Part shown: one piece after another, positions 28,477-58,474 of the stretch
Layout: each line of letters starts with the position of its first letter
Numbering within the stretch: position 1 is the first letter of the stretch
NCBI RefSeq assembly: GCF_008831285.2
Contig: NC_045144.1
Location: 18,429,716 to 18,493,715 of the forward strand
Reading direction: 5' to 3'
Source of the DNA: Nymphaea colorata
Lineage: Eukaryota > Streptophyta > Magnoliopsida > Nymphaeales > Nymphaeaceae
Length of the DNA: 64,000 bases
Made by a program: the position numbers and the translations under genes
Notes under the pieces: model-generated
Seen by the model: the letters and a program-made list of their open reading frames with translations, nothing else
The model's database searches: none
What the model was told of the DNA's origin: nothing

Positions 28477-28707
28477 TCAAGGACATTTTATTCTATCATA
28501 ACCAGGCCCACCGAATGTTATATGCTGGCCATAGCCTTCATCATCGTCATCATCATCGTCATCGTCATCGTCATTATCATCGCCATCGTCATCGCCATCG
28601 TCATCGCCATCGCCATCGCCATCGTCATCATCATCATCATCGTCATCCCCATCGTCATCACCATCGTCATCGCCGTCATCGTCGTCATCATCATCATCAT
28701 CGTCATC

Positions 28708-28803
<96 letters not shown>

Positions 28804-29962
28804 GTCATCGTCATCGTCATCGTCAGATTGGGAATGTTTGAGATCATAGCGGCCAGGATTGGTGACGTATACATTGTCATGGCCATCGGAAGATTGGGAA
28901 TATTTGAGATCATAGCAGCCAGGATTGGTGAGGAATACATTGACTGCTTGGGGAGCATCATAACGATTCAGGCCGAGGTCGTATAAGGCCATGTGACTGA
29001 TGTATGCAACCCTCCCTATTGGTTCGCTTGAGAAATGACCGTTCCCCATCTGGGTGGACGTGTGCCTTCCCCTTGTCCGCTGATTCACTACCTCACCTCC
29101 CCATACAACATTGTTTGCATAGCGTGCTCTGTAATTTGATTTTGGCCAAAAGCCGATCATGGTTTCATCCACCCAAAGTCCCCAGTCTTGATCTTCGTCC
29201 TGCCAAACATGAAAATACATTAGTAATCCACTAATCAATAAGACATACCTTTTCTCTGGTCTCTGCCTGGCTAAGTTATTTGTTCGCAGTTTTTCTTTTA
29301 TTTTCTTTAGTTTTTTGGTTTGGAAGATTTTTTAGTATGATGTAATTGGAACTTGGATTCTGAGCTACATTTTAATGCAAATAGCAGACCAAAGTATTAA
29401 GTCTATGTTCTTGGGTGTGCAAGAGGAATATTTCCTTCTACTGTCCAAGAATAGAGCTGAAGCCTCCCATCTAACCTCTTGTCCCCATAAGATATAGGGC
29501 AAGCATGCATATGTGCTTTAAAAAGCCGCCACCGCCACTTTTCAACTTGCATGTTAGTGGCTCGTTCTTTCTTTTAGCATAAATAGTTGATTTCTACTGG
29601 CACTCCTCGCCCCTAATGTTGTGCTAACTTCCTGGAGAACTATTAACTCCATGTTCATTCTTTTACTTGCAAAGCAGCATAGATATTAATTTGGGCTACG
29701 ATGTGGCTGATGCAAGGTCTTTACCAAGTCGGTTGATAAATGACAGATAATAATTGCTCTCGCGTCATGTTGTCGTAGGGGGCGTTTGGAATATCGTCTC
29801 AAACACTTGATTTTTGCAGAACCTGGTTCCGTTAAAACCATGTTTTTTAATGTGTTTTTAAAATGTGGTTTGCCTGTTTGGATGAAAAGGCAATAACTGG
29901 TTTTCACTTTCAAAACCTGGTTTTTGTTTGTATGATAAAAACTGAGTTTTTGAGGATACTTG

Positions 29963-30009
<47 letters not shown>

Positions 30010-31102
30010 ATAAGAATATTATTCTCAAATATAAATTTTCATTTACGTATAGTCTTAACAAATTGGACACCCTTACACTATGTCATGCTGAAAGTTCACT
30101 TGCACACATCCCCAATATCATTTAGTGAGTTTACTTGTGCCTGTTGGTTAAACATATAATATGTATAAGCATGCACATAATCCACTCGAAAGGCATGAAT
30201 TGATGCAGAATGTGGCAATTTGAACTTTTAATTCACTTATTGGAAAGAAAGTCGATTAGTCCACCTTAACTTAAGTCGTTCATTTTTTAATCCTCCACTC
30301 CTGCTAGACTATGGTAGGTTCTACTCCCGACAACCGAGCATTCGGCCTTGCTTGGACGTATTAGGTATTCATCCCCACATCAAAACACTGTTTTGTGAAA
30401 ACATGGTTTATTCGTGTGATCCAAACACCACCAAAAACTTGGTTTTGGGATTGTCAGCCAAAAATTTATATAAACATGTATAGATGCTAATGGTCCAGCC
30501 CATACTGGACTATAAGTTGTATGTATTGTTTGATAAATATTTAGGCTTTGGACTCAAAATTGGGCTCATTTTAGTACATTTGAGAACTTCTTTTGTTCAG
30601 CCCATATAAACACACATACAAACACAAAAACGAACAGATACACACATAGAAATTGGATACACACCTGTTTGATGACGATTTCAAGTTCAGTATTATCCCC
30701 ATCGATAGTTGAACAATCAAGTTGCTGACCGAAGGGCATAAAATCATCCGTTCTTTCGAACTCCAGACGATTGTTTGGTGGTTTTCTGCCGTTATCATTA
30801 GAGAGCCATGTGTTGTAGCCGTCATTCTGTTGAAACAATGGAAATATAATAAGTCTTATAGCATTGACAGTACATTCTCTTAATTTATGCAGTTTTTACT
30901 TGATCATGACTACCATTTAATTAAAAGAGAATCCCCATTTAGCACAATATGTATATAACTTTCCAGAGTCTGTTTTCTTAAGTAAAGTATGAGAGTGGGT
31001 TTTATAAGAATTGTTAATTGAATAGGAGAAAGGACAGCATCATGCGTATCCTTCTGACCCTAAGAAAATTCTAATGCGCACACACATTACTTTTGACCAT
31101 CC

Positions 31103-31162
<60 letters not shown>

Positions 31163-33043
31163 TATGTATATTGTTGTAAGGATGGTTAAAAATAAACAAT
31201 ACATGTTAAAAAAAAGAAGTAACCATACCGAGGCACTAGTGATGGCTTATAGGTGCAGCAAAGGTATATAACCTTAGCATCACTTTCACTTTATATGGTG
31301 CTTTAATCGACAGATTTTTAATTTTAACCATCCAACAACTATGTTAAAGCTGGTATATTTTAATATTCTTACATATGTATACTTGGCCAATGAGTGAAAC
31401 GTGCATTTGCATTTGCTAGTGTATTATAGGCCCTCTAAAAATCAACACCAATGGAGTTAAGCACAGTCATTTACCGTGGTGAACCCAAAAAACCGCGTTC
31501 TTCTATCTCCAAATAACATAGGATAGACCTTCACCACAACAAACAAAAGGTTAAATAAAAGTGGGAAAAAGGGAAAATTAAAAAGAAAGGATCATCTCTT
31601 TGCTTGATGAATCGAACATACCATCCAACCAGCTTCCAGTGACATAGAAAAGTCAAACGGCATTCTGTTTACAACCCACATTTGTGATAAGCTCATCTCA
31701 ATATCGTCCTCAAGCCTAGGTTGCCAAATACTCAAAGTTCCTTCTCCGCCTCCATAAATTCCAAATACCGAAGCTGTTGCATGCTATACATAATCCATGT
31801 ATATGTTACAAACCAATACATTGCAAGGCCTTTGTTGATCAAGCACAACACACAAGATAAAATGAGTGCATGAAAGATCAATAAATGCTAAGAAGAAGAA
31901 GAAGAGTGATCGGAAAAGGGTATATAATAGATATCAGACCTCATGTATTGTAGGGTCGAAATCAATCAGCGGTTTTGTGGTTTTTGATTTGAGATACGAT
32001 CTGGCACGTAAACTTGCAAAACTTTCGATGGCGCTGAAATTTAGCGGCCCTGCTTTGGTGGCCTTCAGTAACGGAAAACTTCCCGGTGGGCAGCTTACTT
32101 TTTTGAATGCTCCGGCCTTTCTCCGCCTGTTCCTCGTCGATTCATGATCAGAATTGTTAGCTGTTGTTATTGTTCCATGTAGCGAAGGCTTTTCCCTCGA
32201 CTGTCTCTTTCTTAAAATCGAAGGGTTCCGCTTTCGAGGATGACTACCAAGTTTCATGCAATCATAGATGTCTCCATCATCTACCTGAAAATCAGAAAAA
32301 ACTATTAGGGACAATTGAAATTAGGAGAGCAAGGAGCTTTATCCTTGTTTAAATTTGCAAATTTCATATTTTCTAAGCAATTATCTTTCACTTTGTTTGA
32401 ACAATTTGATAAAATGGTTACTGCGCTTCCTTTAGAGGCCATCGGATCCAAATAGAACTCAAAGGATCTTGCTTCCAAGTTTCGACTGCATTACTTAGAA
32501 AGAGTGATCATAGATTGAAAAGTAACTATCTATGGCTTAAGTTGAGTTGGTGCATCCATGTATAATCTTGCATCAGATCATAGATTGTTACCTTGTGGAC
32601 TTTTATATTTTACCTATCAATGTTGTCAATATTAATCTCTAATGATCTTGAAGACAGTGTTCCACCAAATTAATATAATTGATCAATATTTATTAGGGCA
32701 TGTTCTTTCACTTTTTAACAATTAAGGGGTACTAATAGCAGTAATTTTAAAATTCAAATTGCATTCATATATAAATAAACAAAAAGAAGAAGGTAGCCAT
32801 ATATATAAACAAGGCAATTTTTTGTAGCTGGTCACACTTGCCATTGCAACTAAAAAGGTATGATGATAATAGGAAAATGGGAAATAGAAGGGGGGCATAT
32901 ACCGTGATGGTCTTGATGGGGACCTCATTACGATAATATTTTCCTCCCTCGATCATGTGCCTGCTGCCTTTGCTCAACAGGGCATGATTGAAGAAGATGA
33001 TCACAAGGAGAGGAAGGCACAAACTTTTGGAACTAAAATGCAT
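28477..33043 (-). CDS. Neprosin-family peptidase with giant poly-Asp loop, gene B (six exons, 528 aa)
   Basis: Exons: 32,903-33,043, 31,940-32,284, 31,622-31,783, 31,475-31,528, 30,665-30,826 and 28,477-29,199; all GT-AG, phase 0. The signal peptide, VDDGDIYDC propeptide, LEAGW (Glu212) and WGGE (Glu324) are intact. The last exon is about twice the usual size for two reasons, both in frame. First, a 66-bp tandem duplication (28,825-28,890 and the next 66 bases) repeats the NPG-CYDLK segment, and the second copy has Arg in place of Cys. Second, codons 414-508 are 85 Asp, 9 Gly and 1 Asn. The frame then returns to GYGQHITFGGPG and the final KCP stop. The insert lies between the two C-terminal cysteines, so it would form a long acidic loop on a normal catalytic core. 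Transcription and folding are unproven. Confidence 0.8.
28540..28824 (-). repeat. In-frame Asp-codon (GAT/GAC) repeat tract in gene B
   Basis: 95 codons. The 29 from 28,717 to 28,803 are an uninterrupted GAT run; the rest mixes GAT, GAC and nine Gly codons with one AAT. The mixed part looks older and the pure part like a young slippage product. The antisense frames (Ile, His and Met runs) are artefacts. Confidence 0.95.
29965..30007. repeat. (AT)n microsatellite in intron 5 of B
   Basis: Pure AT run. The equivalent place in C has about seven units (37,796-37,808), E has about 28 (54,018-54,073), and A and D lack it. Confidence 0.9.
31087..31170. repeat. (AT)n microsatellite in intron 4 of B
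   Basis: Interrupted AT run. Gene A has a shorter one at the same place (about 21,747-21,769). Confidence 0.9.
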
Positions 33044-33116
33044 ATTGAGCGTTCTACTCTACATGGTAAAATCCAAAATCTAGTATTCGTTGTCCTCAAA
33101 GTGAAGCAATTGCCAT

Positions 33117-33125
33117 CTTATAGTC
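33117..33125 (-). promoter_or_regulatory. Candidate TATA box of gene B
   Basis: Minus strand GACTATAAG, about 75-80 bases upstream of the start codon. It lies inside the tract that shows no difference from gene C. Confidence 0.5.
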
Positions 33126-33129
33126 AATA

Positions 33130-34690
33130 AAAAGTGATAATTTTTTGGAAAGAAAATCACTTGGTAAGGCTGCAAATAAGAATCAAAAGACCATAAAATC
33201 AAATCCTTTCTTTCTTCAAATAGAGAAAGTGGCCTCGTTTTGTGAACTACTTGTTGTGTAACTTCACTCAATTTTTGGTTATGTTGGATTCCATGCTTTT
33301 TTTTTTACATGTGGTTGTCAAATCTTTCATATATAAGTGGCATTAATTCAGTATCATAATTGATTCTTAATCACATCAGATGAAACTTAAAAAGCATTTT
33401 CTTAAACTATTTCAATAATGATTTTAGTCACACCAATTTTTTTTTTTTTAAAAAAAAGATGAAAACCTTGCGTGCTTGTGTTAAAAAAAAAGGTGGAAAA
33501 GTGAAGGAATGGCCTTAAATTCAGATGTATCTTGTGAATGAGAAAATCTTTTATTCTTCTTCCTCTTCTTGCTGTTCTTTAAGTTTTGCATTGGTAGTTA
33601 CGGTTTAAGCAATGAGTTTGATGTGTCTTTTTGAGAGGAGGTACTTAAAAAGGATGCTTTCCATGAAATACAGTGTACACGAAGCACCAATTGCATATAC
33701 CTACCTGCACTCGAATGCACAAGGAACGTGAATTATATCAGAACATCCAAGTTTGGAGAATACCTTTAAAAACCCAACAAAGTCAAATAGAAATTAGATG
33801 AAATTTCGTCTGCACTTAGTTGATACGTGGATTACTTAAAAATTTAGAATTAAAATTCATCCAAACTCCACATGAAATGGAGTATGCCAAAGATGATTGT
33901 AAAATTTTCAGTCTATAATCTTCAATAGTCTTCTGTAAGGACTTTTTTTGTTTACTATGTAAAGTATTCCCGGCCAAAAAAAAATATTGGATAAAAACCA
34001 CATATATTTAAAACAGAGCGCAATCGTAAAATCATTACGTTAGACTAAAACATGAACCAAATCCACAAGATCAAAGATTCAAACACAGAAGAAAACTCTA
34101 AGTATTGACTAGAGGCACCTATGAAAAAGTGAGCCTAAATTAAATGAGATGAAATCACGTAAATGCAATCTCAACTAAACAAGATGAAATAGCGCACGTA
34201 TTAAATGCACTCTAATGAAATCTAAATTAAATGAAATGCAAATGACATTGAATGCAATTAATTGAAATGCAACACCAGTATACCTGGATGAAAAGCTAAC
34301 CCGAATGAATGAGAGGATGAGAGAGAAGAGAAGGGAGCCCAAGAAAGATGGAGGGTGGGAACTAGGCTGCCCAATTCGATGAATACCTAGCAATGTGGAG
34401 AGTGAGTTCTGTGTTTCGTTGGGTGCACACAACCCATATATGCCAAAAGGAAAAAAGAGAGGTTTTGGTAATTATTTAAAAAATGAATGTCCTTTTTAAT
34501 CTTTTCACTTTTTTACGATTTTCCTTTTCTCTTTACAAAAAGTTTTCTTTTTCCAATAGCCGTATTGGCGCATGAAAAATTGCTGGATAGTACTTCGTCA
34601 TTATCCGTATTTGCGCATGAAGAATTTGTACACTAGTACACCGTACATAACCAGGTTCGAGTAATGGGGGTCCTACCAAATCTCTACTTA
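33130..34690. repeat. 5'-flank module of gene B
   Basis: Collinear with the flanks of A, C and E (see 23,735-25,900), without the MITE found in A. Confidence 0.65.
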
Positions 34691-34707
34691 TAAATAATTA
34701 CTTGTGA

Positions 34708-34880
34708 CATTCATTGCGTCTGTAAATCTTCTCTTTACTGACGCTAGGGAAAAAACGTCAATAGTTACGTTAAAGAAGAACGTTGGTCCATGGGGGGAAG
34801 AAAAAAAAATTAGAAAGTTGGAAAAGTTGTAATGTTAAATAACAACTTTAGAGCTCTACATGCCATCCCCACAATCTAGA
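34708..34880. repeat. Dispersed repeat R2, copy 1
   Basis: Near-identical to 43,098-43,268: GACATTCATTGCGTCTGTAA, TTTACTGACGCTAGGG, AACGTCAATAGTTA, GTCCATGGGGGGAAG and CTACATGCCATCCCCACAATC. A diverged piece is at 42,787-42,880. The ACTGACG/CGTCA words suggest the end of a CACTA-like element. Confidence 0.6.
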
Positions 34881-35225
34881 CTGCATGGTGAAATCCAAAT
34901 TCTAGCTTTTGGTAATCCCCAAAGTGAAGCAGTTTACATTTTGTAGCAAAAGAGAAATGATTTTTTTTTAGAGAAGGAAATTTATTTAGTGAGGTGGCAA
35001 ATAGGAATTACAAGAAAAGATAATAAAACCAAAACCCTTTCTTATCGATACCGTCCTTTGTACATCTAGTTGTAAATCTTTCGTACATAGGTGACATTAA
35101 TTCAATGTCAAGATTGATTCTTTGTGATATTAGGTAAGGTAAAACTTGGCAAGTCTTTTCTTAAAAAAAAAAATCAAGTATTGTTTTAGTTCACCCAGTT
35201 AATAAAATCTTCAAACTTGCACGAA
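34880..35225 (-). pseudogene. Orphan neprosin promoter without exon
   Basis: Begins exactly at the TCTAGACTGCATGGTGAAATCC that precedes exon 1 in other copies, and continues rightwards through a TATA-equivalent (TTTTGTAGC, decayed) and the copy-1-type 5' flank. To its left, where exon 1 should follow, repeat R2 starts instead. Exon 1 and the whole gene are gone. Confidence 0.6.
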
Positions 35226-35229
35226 GGAA

Positions 35230-35861
35230 AACGACGGTAAGTGAAGGGAAAGGCCATAACATTCAGATATATGTTGTGAATGAGATCGAAACCACATTTC
35301 CTATTTATTGTTGTTGTTGTTGTTAGCAATTTTTTTGGTCCTTCCGACCCCATTTTCTGAAATCAGTGAAATTTTACATATGCAACACTGATGCAGCGGA
35401 CGGTCAAAATGGCTGTAAGAACTGCACGGTGGACCTTTTCAAACACATATGACCCCAAAGTGGTCATACGCATAAGCCTGTATGCACCTATGTACCTTGC
35501 ACAAGTTCATGTGCATGACATATACCTCTTGACATTGGCACAAAAAGACACATGTCATGCACCAGGAGCTGTGCATGTTGCATCCCAGTGCACATAACTT
35601 CCCATGAATCTGGGATGGCTTGAAAGTCTGATGCTGATGAAAATGAATGAACTTCCTGGAAAACTTCGGCTGCTTCAAGCAGAATGGATGTTCACACCGG
35701 GCAGGATAACCAGACAGGGCTGTCAAAAAGGCCTTGGGAAATTAAGATTAACAACCTATAATTGCTATATGACATTCATGTATAATTTAATCGAATTAAT
35801 TAAGACTTTAAATCTTGGTAATTACTATATATTTTCAGGTTATGCACATTAAATTGTGTGT

Positions 35862-35896
<35 letters not shown>

Positions 35897-36400
35897 TCCT
35901 GAATTAAATATCAATTTTTTTCCTTTTTATGTTGTAGAAAAAAAGCCAGTAACAATGACTTTCCCGTTTCGCATTCATCTTGTCAGGCGCTCTAGTCTAA
36001 ACCATCAATTATCGGGTTGGATTCGATTCATAATTTGCTTCACTGTAGTGGTACAATTAATTAATTTCCAATCTATGCCATAATTAAATATTTTAAAAGA
36101 TTTAAACATGCAAATTATTTGTTTTGATTTACACAGGAGAAATGATAATCGACTTGATGGAAAATAAGATTGCAATACGATCTATTCCCTATGAGGTACT
36201 TGACCCAGCTGATGATCAACATATCTGCCACGATAAGTGTTCCTAAGTGGCTATTGAAATCACATGCATGACATTTCTGAGGGGGGGGTGGTGCAACAAA
36301 TAGGGTCAGTGTTGGTAAATAGTCAATCTCTATTTTGAATTGCCATGGAGACAATCACTATACTTTAAAAAAAAAAAAAGCAAAAAAAGGACATCCATAT
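35230..36400. repeat. Gene 3'-flank module downstream of C
   Basis: Full copy of the module, with a GA microsatellite at 35,865-35,892. From about 35,740 it is nearly the same as 27,558-28,215. Confidence 0.65.
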
Positions 36401-36668
36401 GCAAATTGAAATATAAGTGGTCAGTTCCCAAATAAGGAGAAGGTGAAAAGTTTCTACCTTCAATGGGGCGTGGGGACTGGCTTAGCAGTCACTTGGAATC
36501 ACATGGATGACACCAATAGGAGATGAAGATGGTGTTGTGCAATCATTTTTCTCATGTCTCAAAAGTAACCTCATTCATTCAAGGAACACCACAAAACAAA
36601 ACACACAAAAAAAAAAAAGGAATTACTTAACAGTGCAGATTAGCATGGATCACAGTCTAATCAGAAGG

Positions 36669-39600
36669 TCAAGGACATTTTATTCTATCATAACCAGGCC
36701 CACCGAATGTTATATGCTGGCGAAAGCCATCGTCATCGTCATCGTCGTCGTCGTCGTCGTCGTCAATCTCAAATTGGAAATATCTAACATCATAGCAGTC
36801 AGGGTTGTTGATGTTTATACTGATCGCTTGAGGGGCTTCATAACGATCCAGGTCGAGGTTGTATAATGCCATGTTACGGGTGTATGCAACCCTCCCAATC
36901 GGTTCGCTCGAGAAATGGCCGTTCCCCATCTGGGTGGATGTGTGCCTTCCCCTTGTCCGCTTATTCACTATCTCACCACCCCATGAAACTTTGTTTGCAT
37001 TGCGTGCCCTGTAATTTGATTTTGGCCAAAAGCCGATCATGGTATCATCCACCCAAAGTCCCCAATCTTTTTCTTCATCCTGCCCTACATGAAAATACAT
37101 TAGTAATCCACTAATAAATATGACATAACTTTTCTCTAATCTCTGCCTAGCTAAGTTGTTGTTTGTTTGCAATTCTTCTTTTATTTTCTTTAGTTTTTTG
37201 GTTTGGAAGATTTTCTAGTGCGATGTAATTGGAACTTCGAATTTGAGTTAAATTTTAGTGTAAATAACAGACCAGAGTATTAAGTCCATGTTCTTGGTTC
37301 AAGAAGAGAGCCGAAGCATCCACCTAACCCCTTGTCCCCTTAAGGATATAGGGCTGTCATGCATTGTTGTCTCAAAAAGCCGCCACCACCACACCTCAAC
37401 TTGCATGTTAGTGGGCCTTGTCTTTTTAGCATAGAGAGTTGATGCCTACTAGCACACGTCGCACCGACAGTTGTTCTAACTTCTTCAAGGACTATTAACT
37501 CCCTGTTCAATTCTTTTACTTGTAAAGCAGCTTAGATGTTAATTTGGGCTATGATGTGGCTCATGCAAGGTCTTTACCAAGTCTGGTTGATAAATGACAG
37601 ATATTAGTTGATTTGGCATCATATTGTCTTAGGGGGTGTTTGGAATATTGTCTCAAAGTCCTGATTTTCGCAGAACCTGGTTAGGTTAAAACCTGGTTTT
37701 TTAAAGAGCTTTTAAAATTTGGTTTGCCTGCTTGGATGAAAAGGCTAAAACAGGTTTTCACTTTCAAAACCTGAACTTTTGAAGATACTTGTAATATATA
37801 TATATATAAGAAAAATATTATTCTAAAATATAAATTTTCATTTATGTATTCTTAACAAATTGGACACCCTTACACTATGTCATGCTGAAAGTTCACTTGT
37901 ACACATCCCCAATATCATTTAGTGAGTTTATACGTGCCTGTTCGTTAAAACATATAATATGTATAATCATGCACATAATCCACTCAAAAGTCATGAATTG
38001 ATGCAGAATGTGGCTGTTTGAACTTTGAATTCACTTATTGGAATGAAAGTCGATTAGTCCACCTTAAGTCGTTCATATTTGAATCCTCCACGCGTGCCAG
38101 AACATGGTAGATTCTACTCCCGACGAAAAGAGCATTTAGCCTTGCTTGGACGTATTAGGAGGTATTTATTCCCAAATCAAAACACTGTTTTGTGAAAACA
38201 TCGTGTGATCCAAACACCACCAAAAACTTGGTTTTGCTGTTGTCAGCCAAAAATTTATATAAACATATATATGTGCTAATGGTCCAGCCGACACTGGAGT
38301 ATAAGTTGTATCCATTGTTTGAAAATATTTTGGCTTTGGACCCAAAATTGGGCACATTTTAGTACAACTGATTCTTTTGTTGATCTCGTTTAAACACACA
38401 TACAAACACAAAAACACACATACAAACACAAAAACACACATGTACACACAAAGAAATTGGGTACGCACCTTCTTGATGACGATTACAAGTTCAGTGTTAT
38501 CCCCATCGATAGTTGAACAATCAAGTTGCATACCGAAGGGCATATAATCATCCACTCTTGAGAATTCCAGGTGATTGGTTCGTGGTAATTTGAAGTTGTC
38601 ATTATAGAGAAATGTGTTAAAGTTGTCATTCTGTTGAAACAATGGAAATATAATAAGTCTTACAACAGAGAAAAAGCCGCCTATTTGTTGCTTCACATAT
38701 AGGAATGACACGAAAACATCGCCAGTTGGATCCCCTTTTAGCACAATACCTATATAACTTTCTAGAGTCTGATTTCTTAAGTATGAGAGTGGGTTTGACA
38801 AGAATTGTGAATAGGATAAGAGAAAGGGCAGCATCATGGGTGTCCTTCAGAGCATAAGAAAATTCTAATGCGCACACACATTACTTCTAAAAATCAACAC
38901 CAATGGAGTTAGGCACAGTCGTTTACCGTGGTGAAGGCAAAAAACCGCGTTCTTCTATCTCCATATAACATAGGATTGACCTTCACCACAACAAAGACAA
39001 AAGGTTAAATAAAAGTGGAAGGAAGGCAAAACAAATAAAGCTAACTTGAATTATTAAAAAAAAGGGATCATCTCTTTTCTTGATGTGAACAAAGGAATCA
39101 AACATACCATCCAACCAGCTTCCAGCGACATAGAAACGTCATTCGGCGTTCTATTTAAAACCCATACTTGTGATAAGCTCATTTCACTATCGTCCTCAAG
39201 CCTAGGTTGCCAAATACTCAAAGTTCCTTCTCCGCCTCCATAACTTCCAATTACCGAAGCTGTTGCATACTATACATAATCCATGTATATGTTACAAACC
39301 AATACATTCTAAGGCCTTTGTTGGTCAAGCACAACACACAAGATAAAATGAGTGCATGAAAGATCAAAAAATGCTAAGAAGAAGAAGAAGAAGCAAAAGA
39401 AGAGTGATCGGAAAAGGGTATACAATAAATATCAGACCTCATGTGCTGATGGAGGATCGTCTTCATCTTCATCAGAAGACAGCGGTTTTGTGGTTTTTGA
39501 TTCGAGAAACGATCTGGCACGTAAACTTGCAAAACTTTCGATGGCACTGAAATTTAGCGGCCCTGCTTTGGTGGCCTTGAGAACCGGATAACTTCCCGGT

Positions 39601-40556
39601 GGGCAGCTTACTTTTTTTAATGCTCCAGCCTTTCTCCGCCTGTTCCTCGTCGATTCATGATTAGAATTGTTAGCTGTTGTTATTGTTCCATGTAGCGAAG
39701 GCTTTTCCCTCGACTGTAACTTTCTTAAAATCGAAGGGTTCCGCTTTCGAGGATGACTATCAAGTTTCATGCAATCATAGATGTCTCCATCATCTACCTG
39801 AAAATCAGCAAAAACTATTAGGGACAATTGAAATTAGGAGAGCAAGGAGCTTTATCCTTGTTTAAATTTGCAAATTTCATATTTTCTAAGCAATTATCTT
39901 TCACTTTGTTTGAACAATTTGATAAAATGGTTACTGCGCTTCCTTTAGAGGCCATCGGATCCAAATAGAACTCAAAGGATCTTGCTTCCAAGTTTCGACT
40001 GCATTACTTAGAAAGAGTGATCATAGATTGAAAAGTAACTATCTATGGCTTAAGTTGAGTTGGTGCATCCATGTATAATCTTGCATCAGATCATAGATTG
40101 TTACCTTGTGGACTTTTATATTTTACCTATCAATGTTGTCAATATTAATCTCTAATGATCTTGAAGACAGTGTTCCACCAAATTAATATAATTGATCAAT
40201 ATTTATTAGGGCATGTTCTTTCACTTTTTAACAATTAAGGGGTACTAATAGCAGTAATTTTAAAATTCAAATTGCATTCATATATAAATAAACAAAAAGA
40301 AGAAGGTAGCCATATATATAAACAAGGCAATTTTTTGTAGCTGGTCACACTTGCCATTGCAACTAAAAAGGTATGATGATAATAGGAAAATGGGAAATAG
40401 AAGGGGGGCATATACCGTGATGGTCTTGATGGGGACCTCATTACGATAATATTTTCCTCCCTCGATCATGTGCCTGCTGCCTTTGCTCAACAGGGCATGA
40501 TTGAAGAAGATGATCACAAGGAGAGGAAGGCACAAACTTTTGGAACTAAAATGCAT
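36669..40556 (-). CDS. Neprosin-family secreted glutamic peptidase, gene C (six exons, 429 aa)
   Basis: Exons: 40,416-40,556, 39,438-39,797, 39,108-39,269, 38,927-38,980, 38,469-38,630 and 36,669-37,079; GT-AG, phase 0 throughout. The protein has the same signal peptide as B (MHFSSKSLC), the VDDGDIYDC propeptide, LEAGW (Glu217), WGGE (Glu329), HTSTQMG and the CYD...KCP pair. The end of the propeptide exon is unusually acidic (DEDEDD), and the C-terminal loop has 12 consecutive Asp (36,728-36,763), between the values of D and B. Exon 5 is the most diverged of the set (NDNFNTFLYND, ending VIKK). Exon 1, intron 1 and the promoter show no difference from B over about 950 bases. No disabling change is seen. 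Confidence 0.87.
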
Positions 40557-40629
40557 ATTGAGCGTTCTACTCTACATGGTAAAATCCAAAATCTAGTATT
40601 CGTTGTCCTCAAAGTGAAGCAATTGCCAT

Positions 40630-40638
40630 CTTATAGTC
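40630..40638 (-). promoter_or_regulatory. Candidate TATA box of gene C
   Basis: Same sequence and position as in gene B. Confidence 0.5.
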
Positions 40639-40644
40639 AATAAA

Positions 40645-42500
40645 AAGTGATAATTTTTTGGAAAGAAAATCACTTGGTAAGGCTGCAAATAAGAATCAAA
40701 AGACCATAAAATCAAATCCTTTCTTTCTTCAAATAGAGAAAGTGGCCTCGTTTTGTGAACCCTTTATTGTGTAACTTCACTCACTTTCTGGTTATGTTGG
40801 ATTCTATGCTCTTTTTTTTTTGCATATGGTTGGCAAATCCTTCGTATATAAGTGGCATTAATTCAGTATCATAGTTGATTCTTAATCATATCTGAAGGTA
40901 AAACTCAAAGAGTTTTCCTAAAAATATTTCAATAATGATTTTAGTCCACCAAATTTAAAAAAGAAAAAGAAATCTTGCGTGCTTGCGTAGAAGAAAACGG
41001 AGGGCAAGTGAAGGAAAGGCCTTATTGCGTGACTTCTTTTTCTTCTTCTTTAAGTTTTCCATTCGTAATTACTGTTTAAGCAATGAGTTTGATGTGTCTT
41101 TTTGAGAGGAAGTACTTCAAAAAAGATGTTTTCCGTGAAATACAGTGTAGACGAAGCACCAAATGCATATACCAACCTGCACTTGAATGCACGAGTACCC
41201 TTATTCATGTCAGAACATCCAAAAAATCAATTTTGCTAATACTTAATTTCCTTGACCCGAACAGGTCAAAAAAAATTGCAGTGCCGAAAACCAGTTTGGA
41301 GAATATCTTTAAAAACCCAACCAAATCAACTACAAATTATATGAAATTTGGTCTGCACTTAGCTGACACATGGATTACGTAAAAAATTAGAATTAAAATT
41401 CATCCAAAATCCACATGAAATAGAGTTTGCTAAAGATGATTGGAAATTTTCAGTATATAATCTTCAGTAGTCTTTTATAAGGACTTATTTCGTTTACTAT
41501 ATAAAGTATTCCCGGCCAAAAAATTATTGAATAAAAACCATATATATTTAAAACAGAGAGCAATCGTAAAATAATTAAGCTAACCTAAAACATGAACCGA
41601 ATCCACAAGTTCAAACACGAAAGGAAACCCTATAATAATTGACTAGAGGCACCTATGAAAAAGTGAGCCTAAATACACCTCCTAGAGGGACCCATGCAAT
41701 CACGTAAATGCAATTTCAACTAAATGAGATGAAATAGCGCACGTATTAAATGCACTCTAATGAAATCTAAATTAAATGAAATGCAAATGACATTGAATGC
41801 AATTAATTGAAATGCAACAACAATAAACCTGGATGAGAGAGAAGAGAAGGGAGCCCAAGAGAGAGAGAGGGTGGGCAACGTGGTGAGTAAGTTGTTGGGT
41901 GCACGCAACCCATCTACACCAAAAAGAAAAGAGGTAAGGTTTTGGTAATTATTTGAAAAAAGAGTCTCCTTTTTAATCTTTTCACCTTTTGTGATTTCCT
42001 TTTTTGTCCTCACAAAAAGTTTTCTTTTTTAGTTATCTGGTAGTATTTTCGTCATTAGCCCTATTCGCGCAGGAAAAAATCATACACTAGTATGGCGTGC
42101 ATAACCAGGTTCGAGCAATGTGGGTCCTACAAAATCTCTCGTTACAAAGCGTGTGTGGAGAGGGAGGGAAATAATGGAAAAAAAAAAAAAAGGTAAAGTG
42201 TGTTTGGATGGCTAATTAAGACTGGGACCCGGGAGAAGTTAAACTCCAAGATGTAATCCATGTGAGCGTATTCATACAAGCTCAACTGCAAATGAAACAA
42301 AATTAATCCAAAATATGCAAGTGCAAACTAATTGCACCCCAATTAACTTTTTAAAAGTGATCTCTAGAAGGATTTGATCAAATGTGTGGGATCCATGGGA
42401 CTCTAATCTAACAAAATGCCATCCTATTGATTTAAGATTAATATTAGTAGTTATCATAATTAATGAAAGTGTTACGTTAATTTTCGCTAAGTGATTATTA
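40645..42500. repeat. 5'-flank module of gene C
   Basis: Matches the flanks of A, B, D and E. The piece 42,180-42,500 also matches 25,560-25,900 upstream of A (GTGTTTGGATGG, GGGAGAAGTTA, CCAAGATGTAATCCATGTGA). Confidence 0.65.
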
Positions 42501-42509
42501 TCAAGGTGA

Positions 42510-42665: not shown

Positions 42666-42699
<34 letters not shown>

Positions 42700-42966: not shown

Positions 42967-42997
<31 letters not shown>

Positions 42998-43458: not shown

Positions 43459-43641
43459 GAATGGGATGCCGATTGCTTTCGCTGGAAGCCTTGAACAGCC
43501 ACCAAAACCCTCACGAGTGGAATGGGATGTCGATTGCTTTCGCGGGAAGCCTTGAACAGCCACCAAAACCCTCACGAGTGGAAGGGGATGTCGATTGCTG
43601 CGGCTGGAATTCTTGAACAGCCACCAAAACCCTCACGAGTG
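43459..43641. repeat. 61-bp tandem repeat, three units
   Basis: Units at 43,459-43,519, 43,520-43,580 and 43,581-43,641 each end CAGCCACCAAAACCCTCACGAGTG in the form ...AACCCTCACGAGTG. Units 1 and 2 differ at two or three places; unit 3 is more diverged. There is no spacer, so this is not a CRISPR. Confidence 0.9.
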
Positions 43642-43887
43642 GCGCTGGTCTTCAACCGCAACCGGCTGAGCAAAGATGGCTGCGACGAGCGAAACGGGTG
43701 TTCCAGGGGCTGTGCAGCGCATGGTGACATGCGGGGAGGGTCTTCAATTAGGGCCCTGCAGCAAACAACGACCAGCTAAGAGGAGGCAGAGGACCGAGGA
43801 GAAGTCCTGCTGACCTTGGATTTCAACGTATTCGTATTGTTACCCAAAACCTGGCAATCGATTCCCCTTGCCTAACTTTCACTACTA

Positions 43888-44055: not shown

Positions 44056-44059
44056 TTGT

Positions 44060-45608
44060 TAAAAATATTTTTCTTTATCTCATCTCCTCCTTATTTGCTG
44101 CTTATCTTAATGATAAACATTTCATTTGGATGAACTCGCGTGAAGAGAGTGTTGGAACTTTGCGAAGAATCTAGATAGCGCATAAACGAAAATGCAGAAA
44201 TCGAAAGAGACATTCATGATTCATGTGTTTCATATAAGGCGAAAGAAGAATCTGTAGAGGCGACTGCCGACTGAATGTCGACAGCTGTAGGAAGAACGGC
44301 TACAGTCCCCATAGAGTCGTTCCCCAGCGACATTGGCGGCGGCGGCAATGGGTTTCTCTTCTAAGCCATAGCAGCTCAATGATGGGAACAGACAATTCAC
44401 GTATAACTAAGGGGGCCGATTACCCAGACGGTAAAAAACTGAATGTGTCTCACACCATCACAAGACAAAGTATTTATACTTAAGGGTTCGAAACGGATAT
44501 GAACCCGTATCACAACACTATCCAAATAGAGAAACTCGAAAGTTGTGGGATAAAATTAGCCACATGTTGTTGAAATCTTGTACAAATTTTTTGTATATAA
44601 GTCTCCCTATATCCCTCTCTCTGCGCCCAACTCGTTTCTTTCTCTCCTCATCTCGTTCAGCGCTCGTCTCATGTGTCAGAGCAACTCATGGTCGATGTAA
44701 GGCAAGGCATGATGGCCTCACCGTGCTTCAGTTCGCTGGTTCAGTCTGGCTGATGCGGACCTTCCACCAGCAAGATCTTCTCTGGTGTCTTCATTGTTGG
44801 ACAGTAATGACTTACACTAGCGTCTTCTCTTCTATTCCCTGCGATTGAAGAGTCCTGGTCATTGCTGCTCCTGCTTGCCCAATTTCCAGTCGGTTGGGAA
44901 TTGTTGCGCAATATCAGAATTTTTTAGTCGTCTGTGGAGCAATCGATTTTCCAAAGCTCAGCCAGGAAGCTGCCTGCGGCTACCAACGGAGAATCACCAC
45001 CGCCCCCTCAATTCTATTTTTAGATTTGGGATTTTTACAAACCCTCTTGATGGAGCGGAAGAACAGTCAAGCCTCTGCTGCTGGTGAACCAGGGAGAGCC
45101 TGAAAATTACAGCGAGGACAATCCTCGACAGTTTCCACAATTCTATTCAAAAGATTGGGTTTTGACCTATCTCTGAAGTCTGCGAGCAAGAAGAAGTTAG
45201 GCACAACAGGTAGGAACCGAATGTGGGAAGCCTCTGCGTCCGCCGGCTGCCTGTGTGCCATTCCTTCTTGTTTCAGAAACCTGAGGGCCATCGCTGCAGA
45301 AATCGCCCTCCCTCTGTATTCTGCCTCCTCCCTTCTGATTCCTGAAGTAGAGTAGCAGGGCTAACAGAGGGGACCAGATGGGTGCTTAGGACACAAGCAA
45401 ATACGACTGCCTACGTTTGCGACTGAGAACCTGTTGTCGAACTGAATCTGTAAGCTGAGAACAGGAGCTGCCGAGAGGAGATTTTTGCGTCCGCCGGTGC
45501 TTACCGGCAATTGCTTCCTGCATCCCTATCTCAGTCACAGACTGGGGCTTAATTGATTTCTGGAGAACAGGTTTCATATCTGCAGAAAGAGAAGAGAGAA
45601 GGCCAGGC

Positions 45609-45652
<44 letters not shown>

Positions 45653-45860
45653 CTGTTTCAGTTGCTGCAGGCCGTGTGCAGCCTAGAAGGAGTCGCCCCT
45701 CTTTGCGTTTCAAGTTTTTTTTGCCCCTTTTTTTCTTCGCATGGCGGCAACTCTTGCTCGACCGGAGACGTAACCAGAACCGACTGTTGTCACGCACCGT
45801 TGTAACTCGAGTGAAGGCACACAAGGTGGTGGTTCAAAAATGAATTTTCGTCACTACTAA
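44060..45860. other. Unassigned stretch, possible decayed retroelement or gene fragment
   Basis: Higher GC than the array and several unrelated open frames of 60-100 codons on the plus strand (44,543-44,848, 44,845-45,087, 45,155-45,355), none with a motif I recognise. It precedes a copia pol relic and could be its LTR and leader region, but no terminal repeat pair or primer-binding site was found. Confidence 0.35.
45610..45650. repeat. (AT)n microsatellite
   Basis: About 20 AT units. The open frames with Ile-Tyr runs that cross it are artefacts. Confidence 0.9.
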
Positions 45861-45899
45861 TTGCGGCGACCATTCATAATCAAAGGCCGGTGGATCTCC

Positions 45900-46950
45900 A
45901 AGCAAGCGATGGTACTAGTTTTTTTTTACAATATTAGACAATCATCTAAGGAAGTTGTACCTTCATTCACTATGGATGGGCATCATAAACTCTTATCACT
46001 TGTTAAAACTCCATCTGCTTCTATCAATTTCGCAGGCAATTATGTTCATCCCATCTTCTTTGGATTATCGATTCTGGAGCAAGAGCTCTCTACTTCAAAA
46101 ACCAACAATTTGTCAAGTACCTATAATCTTACCTAATTGACATATAATAACTGTTAATCAATCTAGTGATGTTAAACTACCACCTTTCACTCTTGAAAAT
46201 TTCTTGCATATTTCTTTTTTCAAAGTGAACCTACTCTTTGTAAGTCCATTGACCAAAGCATTAAATTGTTCCGTAACTTTCTTTCTTACCCATTGTGTCT
46301 TGTAGAACCTAGCGTTGAGGACGACGATTGGTCAAAGAAAAGAAAGAGAATGCATATATGAATTCAATCTAGTGACTTCATCTACAAGCTGCTTTACTGT
46401 GTCCTCTTCCCAATATCTCTGGCATAGGCGGTTCGGTCATCTTTTTCTTTCTCATCTTAAACTTGTTGATTCTTATATAGGTTTGAATTGTGATTTGAAT
46501 AAAGAAATTTGTTGTGATGTTTGTCATCGCGCAAAGCAAACTCGCTTGAAATTTGATTTAAGTAGTGTTGAAACATCAAAGCCTTTTGAATTGATACACT
46601 GTCATATTTGTGGGTGGTATAATCAGTTCACTCTTATTGGAGCACATTATTTTTTAAGTATAGTTGATGACTATACAAGATCTACATGAGTTTTTCTAAT
46701 GAGACATAAACATAAAACATTTCATTGTATGAAAAAATTTTTGTCATGATTAAAAATCAGTTTGGAGTCTGTATTAATAATGGGCGCTCAGATAATGGGT
46801 CTGAACTTTTTTTATATGAGATAAAATCTTTCTTTCAAATGCAAGGTACTTTACAACAACACAATTGTATCGCTACTCCACAACACAATGGAGTAGTAGA
46901 GTGGAAACATCGACATCTTTTAGAAATTGCTAAACATGCAAATTATTTGT
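45900..46950 (+). pseudogene. Copia pol relic: protease and integrase fragments
   Basis: Plus strand: WIIDSGA, the copia aspartic-protease active-site motif, appears near 46,065 out of frame with its surroundings. The GAG-pre-integrase segment (LWHRRFGHL, CDVCHRAKQTR) is open at 46,315-46,689. The integrase core follows with IVDDYTR, RSDNGSE and HNGVVEWKHRHL, carrying the three acidic residues of the DDE triad. There is a stop after DDYTRST and a frameshift in the next 40 bases; Trp replaces the usual Arg before KHRH. At about 46,935 the frame passes straight into the 3'-flank module of gene D. No reverse transcriptase is present. It is unlike the copia elements at 16 and 61 kb. Confidence 0.8.
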
Positions 46951-47300
46951 TTTGATTTACTCAGGAGAAATGATAATCGACTTGATGGAAAATAAAATCG
47001 ACATATAATCTATTCTCTATGAGGTACTTGACCCAGCTGATGATGAACATATCTGCCATGATAAGTGTTCCTTAGTGGCTATTGAAATCACATGCATGAC
47101 ATTTCTGAGGGGGGTGGTGCAACAAATAGAGTCGTTATTGGTAAACAGTCAATCTCTATTTCTAATTCTCATAGAAACAGCCAATATACTTAAAAAAAAA
47201 ACAAACAAAAAAAGGACATCGATGTGCAAGTTGCAATATAAGTGGTTGGTTCCGGAAACACAAAGAACAGATGATAAGGAGAAGGTGGCTTAGCAGTCAC
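46930..47300. repeat. Truncated gene 3'-flank module downstream of D
   Basis: Begins AAACATGCAAATTATTTG, within the module, exactly where the copia integrase relic ends. The microsatellite half is missing. Confidence 0.65.
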
Positions 47301-47480
47301 TTGGAATCACATGGATGACACCAATAGGAGATTAATATTGGTGTTGTGCAATCATTTTTCTCATGTCTTTAAAGTAACCTCATTCATTCAAAGAACACCA
47401 CAAAGCAAAATGCAAAAAAAAAAAAAAAAAGGAATTACTTAACAGTGCAGATTAGCATCGATAACAGTCTAATGAGAAGG

Positions 47481-50400
47481 TCAAGGACATTTTATTCTAT
47501 CATAACCGGGCCCACCGAATGTTATATGCTGGCCATAGTCATCATCATCGTCAGATTGGTAATATTCGAGATCATAGCAGTCAGGCTGGGGGACGTATAC
47601 ATCAATCTCTTCGGGAGCATCATAACAATCCAGGTCGAGGTCGTATATGGCCATGTTACTTGTGTATGCAACCCTCCCTATCGGTTCGCTCGAGAAATGG
47701 CCGTTCCCCATCTGGGTTGACGTGTGCCTTCCCCTTGTCCGCTCATTCACTATCTCACCTCCCCATACAATTTTGTTTGCATAGCGTTTTCTGTAATTTG
47801 ATTTTGGCCAAAAGCCGATCATGGTATCATCCACCCAAAGCTCCCAGTCTTGATCTTCGTCCTGCCGAACTTGAAAATACATTAGTAATCCACTAATCAA
47901 TAGGACATACCTTTTCTCTGATCTCTGCCTAGCTAAGTTATTTGTTTGTAATTTTTTCTTTTATTTTCTTTAGTGTTTTGGTTTGGAAGATTTTCGAGTG
48001 CGATGTAATTGGAACTTCGATTCTGAGCTACATTTTTATCCAAATAATAGACCAAAGTATTAAGTCCATGTTCTTGCCTTCCTTACACTATGCCATGATG
48101 AAAGTTCATTTGTACACTTCCCCAATATCATTTAGTGAGTGTACTTGTTCCTGTTGGTTAAACATATAATATGCCTAAGCATGCACACAATCCACTCAAA
48201 AGGCATGAATTGATGCAGAATGTGGCTATTTGAACTTTTAATTCACTTATTGGAAAGAAAGTCGATTAGTCCACCTTAACTTAAGTCGTTCATTTTTTAA
48301 TCCTCCACTCCTGCTAGACTATGGTAGGTTCTACTCCCGACAACCGAGCATTCGGCCTTGCTTGGACGTATTAGGTATTCATCCCCACATCAAAACACTG
48401 CTTCGTGAAAACATGGTTTATTCGTGCGATCCAAACACCACCAAAAACTTGGTTTTGGGATTGTCAGCCAAAAATTTATATAGACATGTATACATGCTAA
48501 TGGTCCAGCCCATACTGGACTATAAGTTGTATGTGTTGTTTGATAAATATTTAGGCTTTGGACTCAAAATTGGGATCATTTTAGTACATTTGAGAACTTC
48601 TTTTGTTCAGCCCATATAAACACACATACAAACACAAAAACGCACAGATACGCACATAGAAATTGGATACACACCTGTTTGATGATGATTTCAAGTTCAG
48701 TGTTATCCCCATCGATAGTTGAACAATCAAGTTGCTTACCGAAGGGCATATAATCATCCGTTCTTGTGAACTCCAGACGATTGTTTGGTGGTGCTCTATA
48801 GTCGTCATTATAGAGAACTGTGTTGTAATCGTCATTCTGTTGAAACAAAGGAAATATAATAAGTCTTATAGCATTCACACTACATTTCTCCTAATTTATG
48901 CGTTTTTTACTTTGTCATGATGACCATTTAATTAGCACAGAAAAAGCAGCATATTTGTTATTTCACATATAAATGGAGATAGTTTCGCAGAGAGGGATTT
49001 TATTTTAAACAATATATGTTAAAAAAAGGTAACAGGGCATTAGTGATGGCATATAGGTGCAGCAAAGGTATATGGTACCCTTAGCATCACTTTCACTTTA
49101 TATGGTGCTTTAATCGGCAGATTTTTAATTTTTAACTACTCAGCAACCATGTTAAATCTGGTTTGTTTGAATATTCCTATATATGTATACTTGGTCATGT
49201 GATTTGAAGCTAAAAGCCGTCTTCAGAATGGAAGGGAGGAAAAATCAATGAGTGAAACGTGCATTTGCATTTGCTAGTGTGTTATAGGTGCTCTAAAAAT
49301 CAACACCAATGGAGTTAGGCACAGTCGTTTACCGTGGTGAAGGCAAAAAACCGCGTTCTTCTATCTCCATATAACATAGGATTGACCTTCACCACAACAA
49401 AGACAAAAGGTTAAATAAAAGTGGAAGGAAGGCAAAACAAAAAAGGCTAGCTTGAATTATTAAAAAGAAGGGATCATCTCTTTTCTTGATGTGAACAAAG
49501 GAATCAAACATACCATCCAACCTGCTTCCAGTGACATCGAAAAGTCATTCGGCGTACTATTTAAAACCCATATTTGTGATATGCTCATCTCACTATCGTC
49601 CTCAAGCCTAGGTCGCCAAATACTCAAAGTTCCTTCGCCGCCTCTATAACTTCCGGTTACCGAAGCTGTTGCATACTATACATAATCCATGTATGTGTTA
49701 AAGAAACCAATAAATTCTGAGGCCTTTGTTGATCAAGCACAACACACAAGATAAAATGAGTGCATGAAAGACCAATAAATGCTAAGAAGAAGAAGAAGCA
49801 AAAGAAGAGTGATCGGAAAAGGACATACAATAGATATCAGACCTCACGTCTTGGCTGAGAAACGTCATCAACGAGCGGCTTTGTGGTTTTTGATTTGAGA
49901 AACGATCTGGCACGTAAACTTGCAAAACTTTCTATGGCACTGAAATTTAGCGGCCCTGCTTTGGTGGCCTTGAGAACCGGAAAACTTCCTGGTGGGCAGC
50001 TTACTTTTGTGAATGCTCCCGCCTTTCTCCGCCTGATCCTCGTCAATTCATTAACAGAATCGTTAGCTGTTGTTACTGTTCCAGGTAGCGAAGGCTTTCC
50101 CCTCGACTGTATCTTTCTTAAAATCGAAGGGTTCCGCTTTCGAGGATGACTATCAAGTTTCATGCAATCATAGATGTCTCCATCATCTACCTGAAAATTA
50201 GAAAAAACTATTAGGGACAATTGAAGTTAGGAGAGCAAGGAGCTTTATCCTAGCTTAAATTTACGGATGACATATTTTCTGAGCAATTATCTTTCAGTTT
50301 GTTTGAACAATTTGATAAAACAGTTACTGCACTTCCTTTAGTGGCCATCGGATCCAAATAAAAGTCAAACGATTTCCAAGTTTGGACTGTATTACTCAAA

Positions 50401-51358
50401 AAGAATGATCATAGATAGAAAAGTAACTATCTATGGATTAAGTTGAGTTGGTGCATCCACGTATAATCTTGCATCAGATCTGGTTACCTTGTGGACTTTT
50501 TACCTATCAATGTTGTCAATATTAATCTCCAATGATCTTCAAGACAGTGTTCCACCAAATTAATATGCATCTGTCCAGTAAGGGCTACATCAACCTCTGG
50601 CTGTTTGTATAAAATAATTATGAGCTCATTATAAAAGTTATAAACAAATAATAATGTTTAATTTAGAGTGGGATCAACAACACTTTATGAGAGGTCAAAT
50701 GGATGCATATTAGTTAATGGAATATAGTAATGGCTACACCAATACTTGCTAAATGTAGAAAACAAAAAAATAAAAGATTTTAAATGTTATAAAATATAAG
50801 ACTCATCATAAAAGCTATTTTAGGGTAATGGCGACCTTGTTAGTACTAATAAGACGAATCAGCTCTAATTGATCAATATTTATCAGGCCATGTTCTTTGA
50901 CTTTTTAACAATTAAAAGCTATTTTAAATTATGTACACTAGAAAAAACAAAATCAAACATGTTTTATGTTTCTGGACCATGTGAAACCGATATTAGTGAA
51001 ACAAAAACAAACAGTCGTGGTGGCCGACCTGTTAGAAATTTCTGGCTAAGGGGCACCGATATTTTAAATTTTAAAAATCAAATTGCATTCAGATATAAAT
51101 AAAGAAAAATGAAGAAGGCAGCTATATATATAAAGAAGGGCAATTTTTGTAGCTTGTCGCACTTCTAAAAAGGTATAATGACAATAGGAAAATGGGAAAT
51201 AAAAGGGGTGCACATACCGTGATGGTCTTGATGGGGACCTCATTACGATAATATTTTCCTCCCTCGAGCATGTGCCTGCTGCCTTTACTCAACAGGGCAT
51301 GATTGATGAAGAAGATCACAAGGAGAGGAAAGCACAAAGTTTTGGAACTCAAATGCAT
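47481..51358 (-). CDS. Neprosin-family secreted glutamic peptidase, gene D (six exons, 415 aa)
   Basis: Exons: 51,218-51,358, 49,843-50,190, 49,514-49,675, 49,333-49,386, 48,675-48,836 and 47,481-47,861; all GT-AG, phase 0. It shows a signal peptide (MHLSSKTLCFPLLVIFFINH), VDDGDIYDC, CPPGSFPVLK, YRGGEG, LEAGW (Glu213), WGGE (Glu325), HTSTQMG and CYD...KCP. Longer N-terminal starts (MLNMHL, MLDSVQ) are in frame, but only the MHL start is conserved in all copies. The C-terminal loop has five Asp. The propeptide exon ends in a variable tail (VDDVSQPRRE) ahead of the donor, as in every copy. Intron 5 is short (about 0.8 kb) because part of the repeat-rich filler found in the others is deleted. 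The coding sequence appears intact. Confidence 0.87.
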
Positions 51359-51422
51359 ATTGAGCATTCTACGCTGCACAGAATCTAGCATTGGTTGGTC
51401 CTCAAAGTGAAGCAATTGCTAA

Positions 51423-51431
51423 TTTATAGTA
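51423..51431 (-). promoter_or_regulatory. Candidate TATA box of gene D
   Basis: Minus strand TACTATAAA, about 70 bases upstream of the start codon. It lies inside the tract that shows no difference from gene E. Confidence 0.5.
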
Positions 51432-51434
51432 AAT

Positions 51435-52340
51435 AAAAAGTGATAATTTTTTGGAAAGATAATCACTTGGTAAGGCCGCCAATAATAATCAAAAGACCAT
51501 AAAATCAAATCCTTTCTTTCTTCAAATAGAGAAAGTGGCGTCGTTTTGTGAACCCCTTATTGTGTAACTTCACTCACTTTTTGGTTATGTTGGATTCTAT
51601 GCCTTTTTTTGCATATGGTTGGCAAATCTTTCGTATATAAGTGGCATTGATTCAGTATCTTAATTGATTCTTAATCATATCAGAAGGTAAAACTTAGAAA
51701 GTGTTTTCCTAAAAATATTTCAATAATGATTTTAGTCCACCAAATTTAAAAAAGAAAAAGAAATCTTGCGTGCTTGTGTAGAAGAAAAAGGAGGGCAAGT
51801 GAAGGAAAGGCCTTATTGCGTAACTTCTTTTTTTTCTTCTTTAAGTTTTCCATTCGTAATTACTGTTTAAGCAATGAGTTTGATGTGTCTTTTTAAGAGG
51901 AAGTACTTCAAAAAAGATGCTTTCCATGAAATACAGTGTAGACGAAGCACCAATTGCGTATACCAACCTGCACTTGAATGCACGAGTACCCTGATTCATA
52001 TCAGAACATCCAGGAAATCAATTTTGCTAATACTTAATGTCCTTGACCCGAACAGGTCAAAAAAATTTGCAGTGCAGAAAACCAGTTTGGAGAATATCTT
52101 TGAAGAGCCAACCAAATCAACTACAAATTATATGAAATTTGGTCTGCACTTACTTGACACGTGGATTACGTAAAAATTTAGAATTAAAATTCATCCAAAA
52201 TCCACATGAAATGGAGTATGGTAAAGATGATTGGAAATTTTCAGTATGTAATCTTCAATAGTCTTTTATAAGGACTTATTTCGTTTACTATATAAAGTAT
52301 TCCCCGCCAAAAGATTATTGAATAAAAACCATATATATTT
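51435..52340. repeat. 5'-flank module of gene D, short
   Basis: Same landmarks as the other flanks, but it breaks off near TATATATTTAAG, so gene E begins only 1.5 kb away. Confidence 0.65.
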
Positions 52341-52509
52341 AAGCTAATCGAGATGAAATATTGCACGTATTAAATGCACTCTAATGTAACGTTGGAAAGT
52401 ACGTTAAGGAATGATCAACAGTAACGTTGCTGCTTGACGATACCAAAGGAGGGTAAGTGAAGGGAAAGGCAATAAAAATCAGACGTATCTTGTGAATGAT
52501 CAGAAAATC

Positions 52510-52650
52510 TGTTCTGAGCAGGATAACCAGACAGGGCAGTAAAAAATCCCTTGGGGTATTAAGACTAATAACCTATAATCGCTATATGGTTTTCATGTAT
52601 AATTTAAGCTAATTAATCAAGACTTTAATTCTTGATAATTACTTAACAGT
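52510..52650. repeat. Remnant of the 3'-flank module downstream of E
   Basis: GAGCAGGATAACCAGACAGGGC and TAATAACCTATAAT match the module; the rest is deleted. 52,340-52,510 is unassigned AT-rich sequence. Confidence 0.6.
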
Positions 52651-52857
52651 GCAAACAAAGCACTTACCCTCCTTTTTGAATGAATATGGTTTTAGTACGT
52701 CTTGGTAATTAAGGATTTCATGCAATGATTTTTCTCGTGTCTCAAAAGTAACCTCATTCATTCAAGGAACACCACAAAACAAAACGTAAAAAAAAAAAAA
52801 AAAAAAAAGAATTACTTAGCAGTGCAGATTAGCATCGATAACAGTCTAATAAGAAGA

Positions 52858-54014
52858 TCAAGGACATTTTGTTCTATCATAACCAGGCCCACCGAATGTT
52901 ATATGCCGGCCATATTCATCGTCAGATGGGAAATATTTGAGATCATAGCAGTCCGGCCGGGGAAGGTATACATTGATCGCTTCGGGAGCATGATAACGAT
53001 CCATGTCGAGGTCGTATATGCCCATGTTACTGATGTATGCAACGCTCCCTATTGGTTCGCTCGAGAAATGGCCGTTCCCCATCTCGGTTGATGTGTGCCT
53101 TCCCCTTGTCCGCTTATTCACTACCTCACCTCCCCATGAAATTTTGTTTGCATAGTGTCTTCTGTAATTTGATTTTGGCCAAAAGCCGATCATAGTTTCA
53201 TCCACCCAAAGCTCCCAGTCTTCATGTTCGTCCTGCCAAACATGAAAAATACATTAGCAATCCACTAATCAATAAGACATACCTTTTCTCTGATCTCAGC
53301 CTAGCTAAGTTGTTATTTGTTTGCAGTTTTGCTTTGAGTTTCTTTAGTTTTTTGGTTTGGAAGATTTTCGAACTTCGAATTTAAGATACATTTTAGGGCA
53401 GATAAATAACAGACCAAAGTATTAAGTCCATATTTTTTGTTGAGCAAGAGGAATATAACCCTCTACTAACCAAGAAGAGAGCCGAAGCATCCACTTAACC
53501 ACCTAACCCCTTGTCCTCTTACAATATAGGGCAGGCATGCGTTGGTGCCTTAAAAAGCCACGACCGCCACTCCTCAACTTGCATGTCAGTGGCCATCATT
53601 TTTTTCAGCACAGAGAGTTGTTTTTTCAGCATAGAGAGTTGATGCCTACTAGCACTCGTCCCCCCGACTGTTGTACTAACTTCTTCGAGAACTATTAACT
53701 CCATGTTTAATTCTTTTACTTGCAAGGCAAGCTTAGATATTAATTTGGTGTATGATGAGGCCGACGCAAGGTCTTTACCAAGTCAGTTGATAAATAACAG
53801 ACATTAGTTGATTTGGCATCATATTGTATTAGGGGTGTTTGGAATATCGTCTGAAAGACTGATTTTCGCAAAACCGGATTCAGTTAAAACCTGGTTTTTT
53901 AATGAGTTTTAAAAATTTGGTTTGCCTGTTTGAAGAAAAAGGCAAAAATAGGTTTTCACTTTGAAAACCTGGTTCTTGTTTGTATGACAAAAACTGAGTT
54001 TTTCAGGATACTTG

Positions 54015-58469: not shown

Positions 58470-58474
58470 AATAA

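Follow-up and report, generated by a model that had tools for sequence, protein, structure and literature searches.

Neprosin of Nepenthes (PDB 7zu8, 9qr8; PF03080 with the pro-domain PF14365) is a close described relative of the genes studied here, and as in these genes a pro-domain is followed by a beta-sandwich peptidase. The catalytic Glu pair, Gln173, Trp175 and the positions of C358 and C379 are kept in the array genes, whereas a counterpart of C219-C224 is missing and residue 134, 136 or 214 is changed in several members. Neprosin also differs at one turn, which holds 3-4 residues there but a 95-codon tract and a duplicated segment in gene B. LOTR1 of the Arabidopsis Neprosin-AP/Neprosin family has a role in Casparian strip positioning, and its cysteine pair C255/C260 is taken as the active site; unlike in the array genes, no Asp tract is mentioned for LOTR1 or its family in the accessible part of that report (PMC8794472).

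Outside this family, the D-repeat of asporin is similar in that a secreted protein carries a repeat-coded Asp run of variable length, which binds calcium, but its 8-19 Asp lie N-terminally in a leucine-rich-repeat protein (accessible part of PMC6771297). In the array genes up to 95 codons lie inside the fold, between two cysteines, and no homology to asporin is claimed. In general, coding microsatellites grow by copies of their unit and show a pure core with interrupted flanks. The tract of gene B shares both traits, while the array tracts differ from such repeats by recurring at one homologous turn in tandem siblings and by their six-base register. The repeat in B is real and rather extreme, and sits at a recurrent site of a known peptidase family.

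A neprosin-type gene array with Asp tracts at one turn

The window, the whole stretch of 64,000 nucleotides of Nymphaea colorata that was analysed, covers only part of an 11-gene array; the genome searched comprised 407.8 Mb in 783 contigs. Together with a lone exon (H) and a dispersed copy (Z), the array forms a clade of 13 members (support 100/95). The minus strand encodes genes A-E; every one of them has six exons bounded by GT/AG, free of internal stops. The features are as follows (window positions unless marked G000).

19482..23658, minus strand: gene A, six exons (splice/frame model and Pfam)
19482-19856, minus strand: last exon of gene A, DDE at the loop, Asp codons 19542-19547
28477..29199, minus strand: last exon (exon 6) of gene B with the long Asp tract (splice sites, open frame, PF03080 E 2.3e-22)
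28540-28824, minus strand: 95-codon tract of B, pure GAT core at tract positions 8-36
28876..28941, minus strand: B duplication copy 1, cysteine kept (NPGCYDLKYSQSSDGHD)
28810..28875, minus strand: B duplication copy 2, Cys changed to Arg; takes in the first five tract codons
32903-33043, 31940-32284, 31622-31783, 31475-31528, 30665-30826 (span 30665..33043), minus strand: exons 1-5 of gene B
36669..40556, minus strand: gene C, six exons; Asp tract 36729-36764, 12 codons, GAC-rich
47481..51367, minus strand: gene D, six exons; Asp tract 47538-47552, 5 codons
52858..58405, minus strand: gene E, six exons; DDE at 52915-52923, Asp codons 52918-52923
160..3381, minus strand: exons 1-4 of gene F, exons 5-6 lying left of the window
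G000:C7:18427486-18427878: last exon of gene F, loop of 5 Asp

PF03080 (Neprosin) was matched by the last exon in 5/5 window genes, with E-values from 2.3e-22 to 3.3e-26, above the curated cut-off, and most of gene D could be aligned to the solved neprosin (E 2e-35). The activation peptide PF14365, for which exon 2 of B was the only one scanned, scored 29.9 bits (E 8.5e-7), under the cut-off of 39.2. The catalytic Glu188 and Glu297 and the essential Gln173 and Trp175 (motifs EAGW, WGGE and SQxW; numbering counted from chain positions of the neprosin alignment) were kept in 12/12 genes. Judged by these sequence matches, the array genes can be classed as neprosin-type glutamic peptidases. By motif, ancillary His134 was retained in 8/12 genes (Arg in D, G, I and J), Tyr136 in 11/12 (His in B) and Tyr214 in 10/12 (Phe in C and Z). 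A change of residue 134, 136 or 214 to alanine is reported to leave neprosin with about a fifth of its activity, a loss of about 80% (PMC9343461).

The counts of Asp codons in the original prediction were recovered throughout: 2 in A, 2 in E, 5 in D, 12 in C and 95 in B, at the same turn of the last exon and all in frame. The composition given for B likewise held, with 85 Asp, 9 Gly and 1 Asn (67 GAT, 18 GAC, 7 GGC, 1 GGT, 1 GGG and 1 AAT codons) and a pure core of 29 GAT codons. The span assigned to the series, 28477..53232, does hold the tracts of B-E, but the last exon of A (19482-19856) falls outside it. As had been proposed, the tract lay between the last two cysteines in 5/5 genes, which are separated by 27 residues in A, 143 in B, 39 in C, 29 in D and 27 in E. 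Each of these last exons reads in frame into the same C-terminus. Because a 3-base repeat cannot shift the frame, the in-frame state is weak evidence by itself; the intact conserved C-terminus past the tract is better evidence. The usual short-loop codons in A, E and G are TCT GAC GAT GAA/GAG.

Runs of at least 4 Asp at the C-terminal turn were found in 6/13 clade members versus 0/35 readable relatives outside, two further outside relatives being cut short and not among the 35; the series is thus longer than first noted. Across the remainder of exons 2-6 in the 12 full-length genes (exon 1 not counted) there was no run of at least 4, the longest being 3. The Asp runs at the turn exceed chance. 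Across the 408-Mb genome, the core of B was the longest of nine sites with at least 12 pure GAT units (29, the next 17), and at the other eight the Asp frame is open across 38 to 235 residues of the stretch examined. Gene M (L027, G000:C7:18525357-18525797) carries 13 pure GAC codons in the loop, the same site with the other Asp codon, and lone last exon H (L061, G000:C7:18407241-18407633), located just past gene G and a near copy of the F last exon, reads DDHDD there. The genes form a natural set in which one peptidase fold bears an acidic insert of 0, 1, 2, 5, 8, 12, about 20 or 95 codons at a single turn.

Architecture and place of the tract

Overlooked in the original prediction was a tandem duplication of 66 bp (22 codons) in gene B at 28810-28941, just before and into the tract (TRF row 28806-28942), by which the loop also grew. 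The two copies differ at 8/66 bases; 4 of the 51 bases before the tract differ, and all four differences change the amino acid. The view of the tract as a pure core with older mixed flanks stood insofar as mixed sequence surrounds the GAT core, but the flanks are better read as one (GAC GAT)n array that keeps a single register across the whole tract. On both sides of the core the non-GAT codons fall on odd positions (25/28, against 3 on even ones; Fisher p 8.7e-7, a value that is too small since copied codons are not independent). This bias is, as far as the codons tell, the mark of a six-base array. In the 3' flank, 443/20000 shuffles reached the observed period-2 match count, a moderate signal.

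The tract aligned to G366-E369 of neprosin (positions hand-counted), between C358 and C379. The equivalents of both cysteines are present in the five window genes and in 8 other clade members, and would form the disulfide reported in the neprosin structure paper (PMC9343461). According to the same source, the main difference between the two crystal forms of mature neprosin is one of 3.8 A at the b21b22 loop tip; as b22 is the last strand, this loop is probably the tract-bearing turn. That the protein may tolerate a long acidic loop, as suggested originally, is therefore plausible, given the shared in-frame site between cysteines and the mobility of the turn in solved neprosin. Structure prediction of the isolated exon gave a pLDDT of 37.

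Origin of the tracts

With a probability of roughly two in three, we consider the tract a coding repeat running away at a tolerated turn, and the Asp run would then have no selected task of its own. The starting point would be a GAC GAT pair coding for the tip of the last beta-hairpin turn, which the C-terminal disulfide would close off. In several members this pair would have become (GAC GAT)n, presumably by slippage or unequal exchange, and in B growth would have reached 95 codons, parts turning into pure GAT and the 66-bp segment beside the tract being duplicated. Because loss of the single CpG in GACGAT gives GATGAT, the pure core may have arisen from decay as well as slippage, plausibly by CpG loss followed by more slippage. 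As the turn probably faces outward and sister genes are to spare, selection would leave such growth in place. Against the runaway stand the lack of decay in B, the moderate period-2 signal of the 3' flank and some constraint on the clade as a whole; moreover, B's 10 non-Asp codons within the 95 include no stop and no Glu, as conservation of acidity would also give.

In exons 3-6, the substitutions private to B were 14 nonsynonymous and 3 synonymous against a neutral 3.33:1 (p 0.78), consistent with no constraint. J was the sole gene with clear constraint (4:9, p 0.0005), and in nine genes pooled 84/124 private changes were nonsynonymous (p 0.019), which indicates some constraint in the clade overall. 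Pairwise dN/dS over the coding sequence ranged from 0.63 to 0.92.

The original prediction saw one repeat at different stages in sibling genes. In its strict form, a single expansion in the common ancestor of B, C, D and Z now at successive stages, this finds agreement in the exon-2 tree, which unites these four genes (96/95), in the five-gene CDS tree, where D, B and C stand apart from A and E (97/97), and in an additional GGC codon that B, C and Z share on the right side of the tract. The exons 3-6 tree, with the loop left out, disagrees: B groups with A, D and E (87/86), the body of D thus siding with A and E, and C groups with Z (93/92). On these exons monophyly of all six run-bearing genes (at least 4 Asp; p-AU 0.0005), B+C+D+Z (0.016) and B+C (0.006) were all rejected, while B+C+Z was not (0.10). 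M and F form a separate branch with their own Asp runs, the core of M being 13 GAC and not GAT, and each of the two trees requires no fewer than 3 changes of state. Given the exons 3-6 tree, these rejections and at least three changes, the claim was not borne out as put, and we consider a single ancestral expansion unlikely; a single start in B, C, D and Z whose trace gene conversion then obscured is possible. Between B 32297-33247 (minus strand) and C 39810-40760, 951 bp are identical (exon 1, intron 1 and flanks) against 82-96% identity elsewhere in the gene, and to judge by the sequence gene conversion has occurred here, or else a very recent exchange. D and E share 407 identical bp in their upstream regions (window 51374-51780 and 58412-58818).

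We also doubt that the length of B is wrong, or that B is a silent gene heading to decay. Long pure repeats are hard to assemble, but mixed codons in one register over 95 codons are unlike a collapsed or stuttering assembly, and the published water lily assembly, if it is the same one, is reported to rest on PacBio reads (PMC7015852). Silence would fit the upstream ATG lost in B (and in C and Z), the His in place of tyrosine at neprosin position 136, the duplicated strand without its Cys and the unconstrained private changes; however, B shows no signs of decay, with an open frame, splice sites for six exons and the catalytic residues kept. It seems quite unlikely that selection maintains the loop as a polyanion binding cations or basic partners, such as its own pro-domain or wall proteins, possibly as a pH-dependent clamp that releases when Asp is protonated in acid. 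Such a role would agree with the repeated growth of Asp, and no other residue, at one site, with the calcium binding of asporin (PMC6771297), and with neprosin, described as having an acidic mature part (pI 4.3) and a basic pro-domain (pI 9.5; PMC9343461) and as activating itself at acid pH. The same split was found in 9 window-clade genes (exon-2 pI 9.4-10.4, mature part 4.05-5.39), and more loop Asp goes with a higher charge over the first 70 residues of exon 2 (rho 0.85, p 0.004, 9 genes). The link weakens for whole exon-2 charge (rho 0.35, p 0.35) and for the charge of the Cys-to-Cys segment in 12 genes (rho 0.54, p 0.07; one-sided permutation 722/20000), and M runs against it with 20 Asp and a charge of +6. 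With one exon-2 ancestor in common, B, C, D and Z count for little more than a single data point in this test, and the private changes of B look unconstrained. Tested in these three ways, a charge clamp with the basic pro-domain is not established. A still bolder idea, which we hold to be very improbable, is that the hairpin turn is an evolving polyanion module by whose repeat length siblings tune net charge, activation pH or tethering to the wall or pro-domain; if true, a fast-mutating coding repeat at one fenced loop would be a dial on a secreted enzyme.

Whether such repeats at turns are neutral runaways, as we favor, or tuning devices can be tested with this set, which also offers a way to gauge directly the amount of charged disordered insert tolerated by a beta-sandwich enzyme and its zymogen, and links repeat growth to gene conversion inside a young tandem array.

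Other features of the locus

At the upstream ATG used in A, D and E, genes B, C and Z have ACG (window 33044-33055 in B, 40557-40568 in C, and L066), and J likewise has ACG at this position; the gene models start at the next in-frame ATG. The end of exon 2 in gene C (window 39438-39797) carries a second acidic stretch, SSDEDEDDPP, near the expected pro-domain linker, a region that varies between siblings. In F, K and M exon 2 is interrupted by an extra intron (F: window 1624-2623); for F and K, a stop is met in one reading of the second exon-2 piece, and a later acceptor probably applies. Window 43459-43642 holds a tandem array of 3 copies of a 61-base unit. From the look of its translation, we take an open frame inside intron 4 of gene E (window 55243-56010, minus strand) to be a piece of a PPR-type gene, and those at 16303-16785 and 62032-62520 (plus strand) are presumably retroelement pieces.
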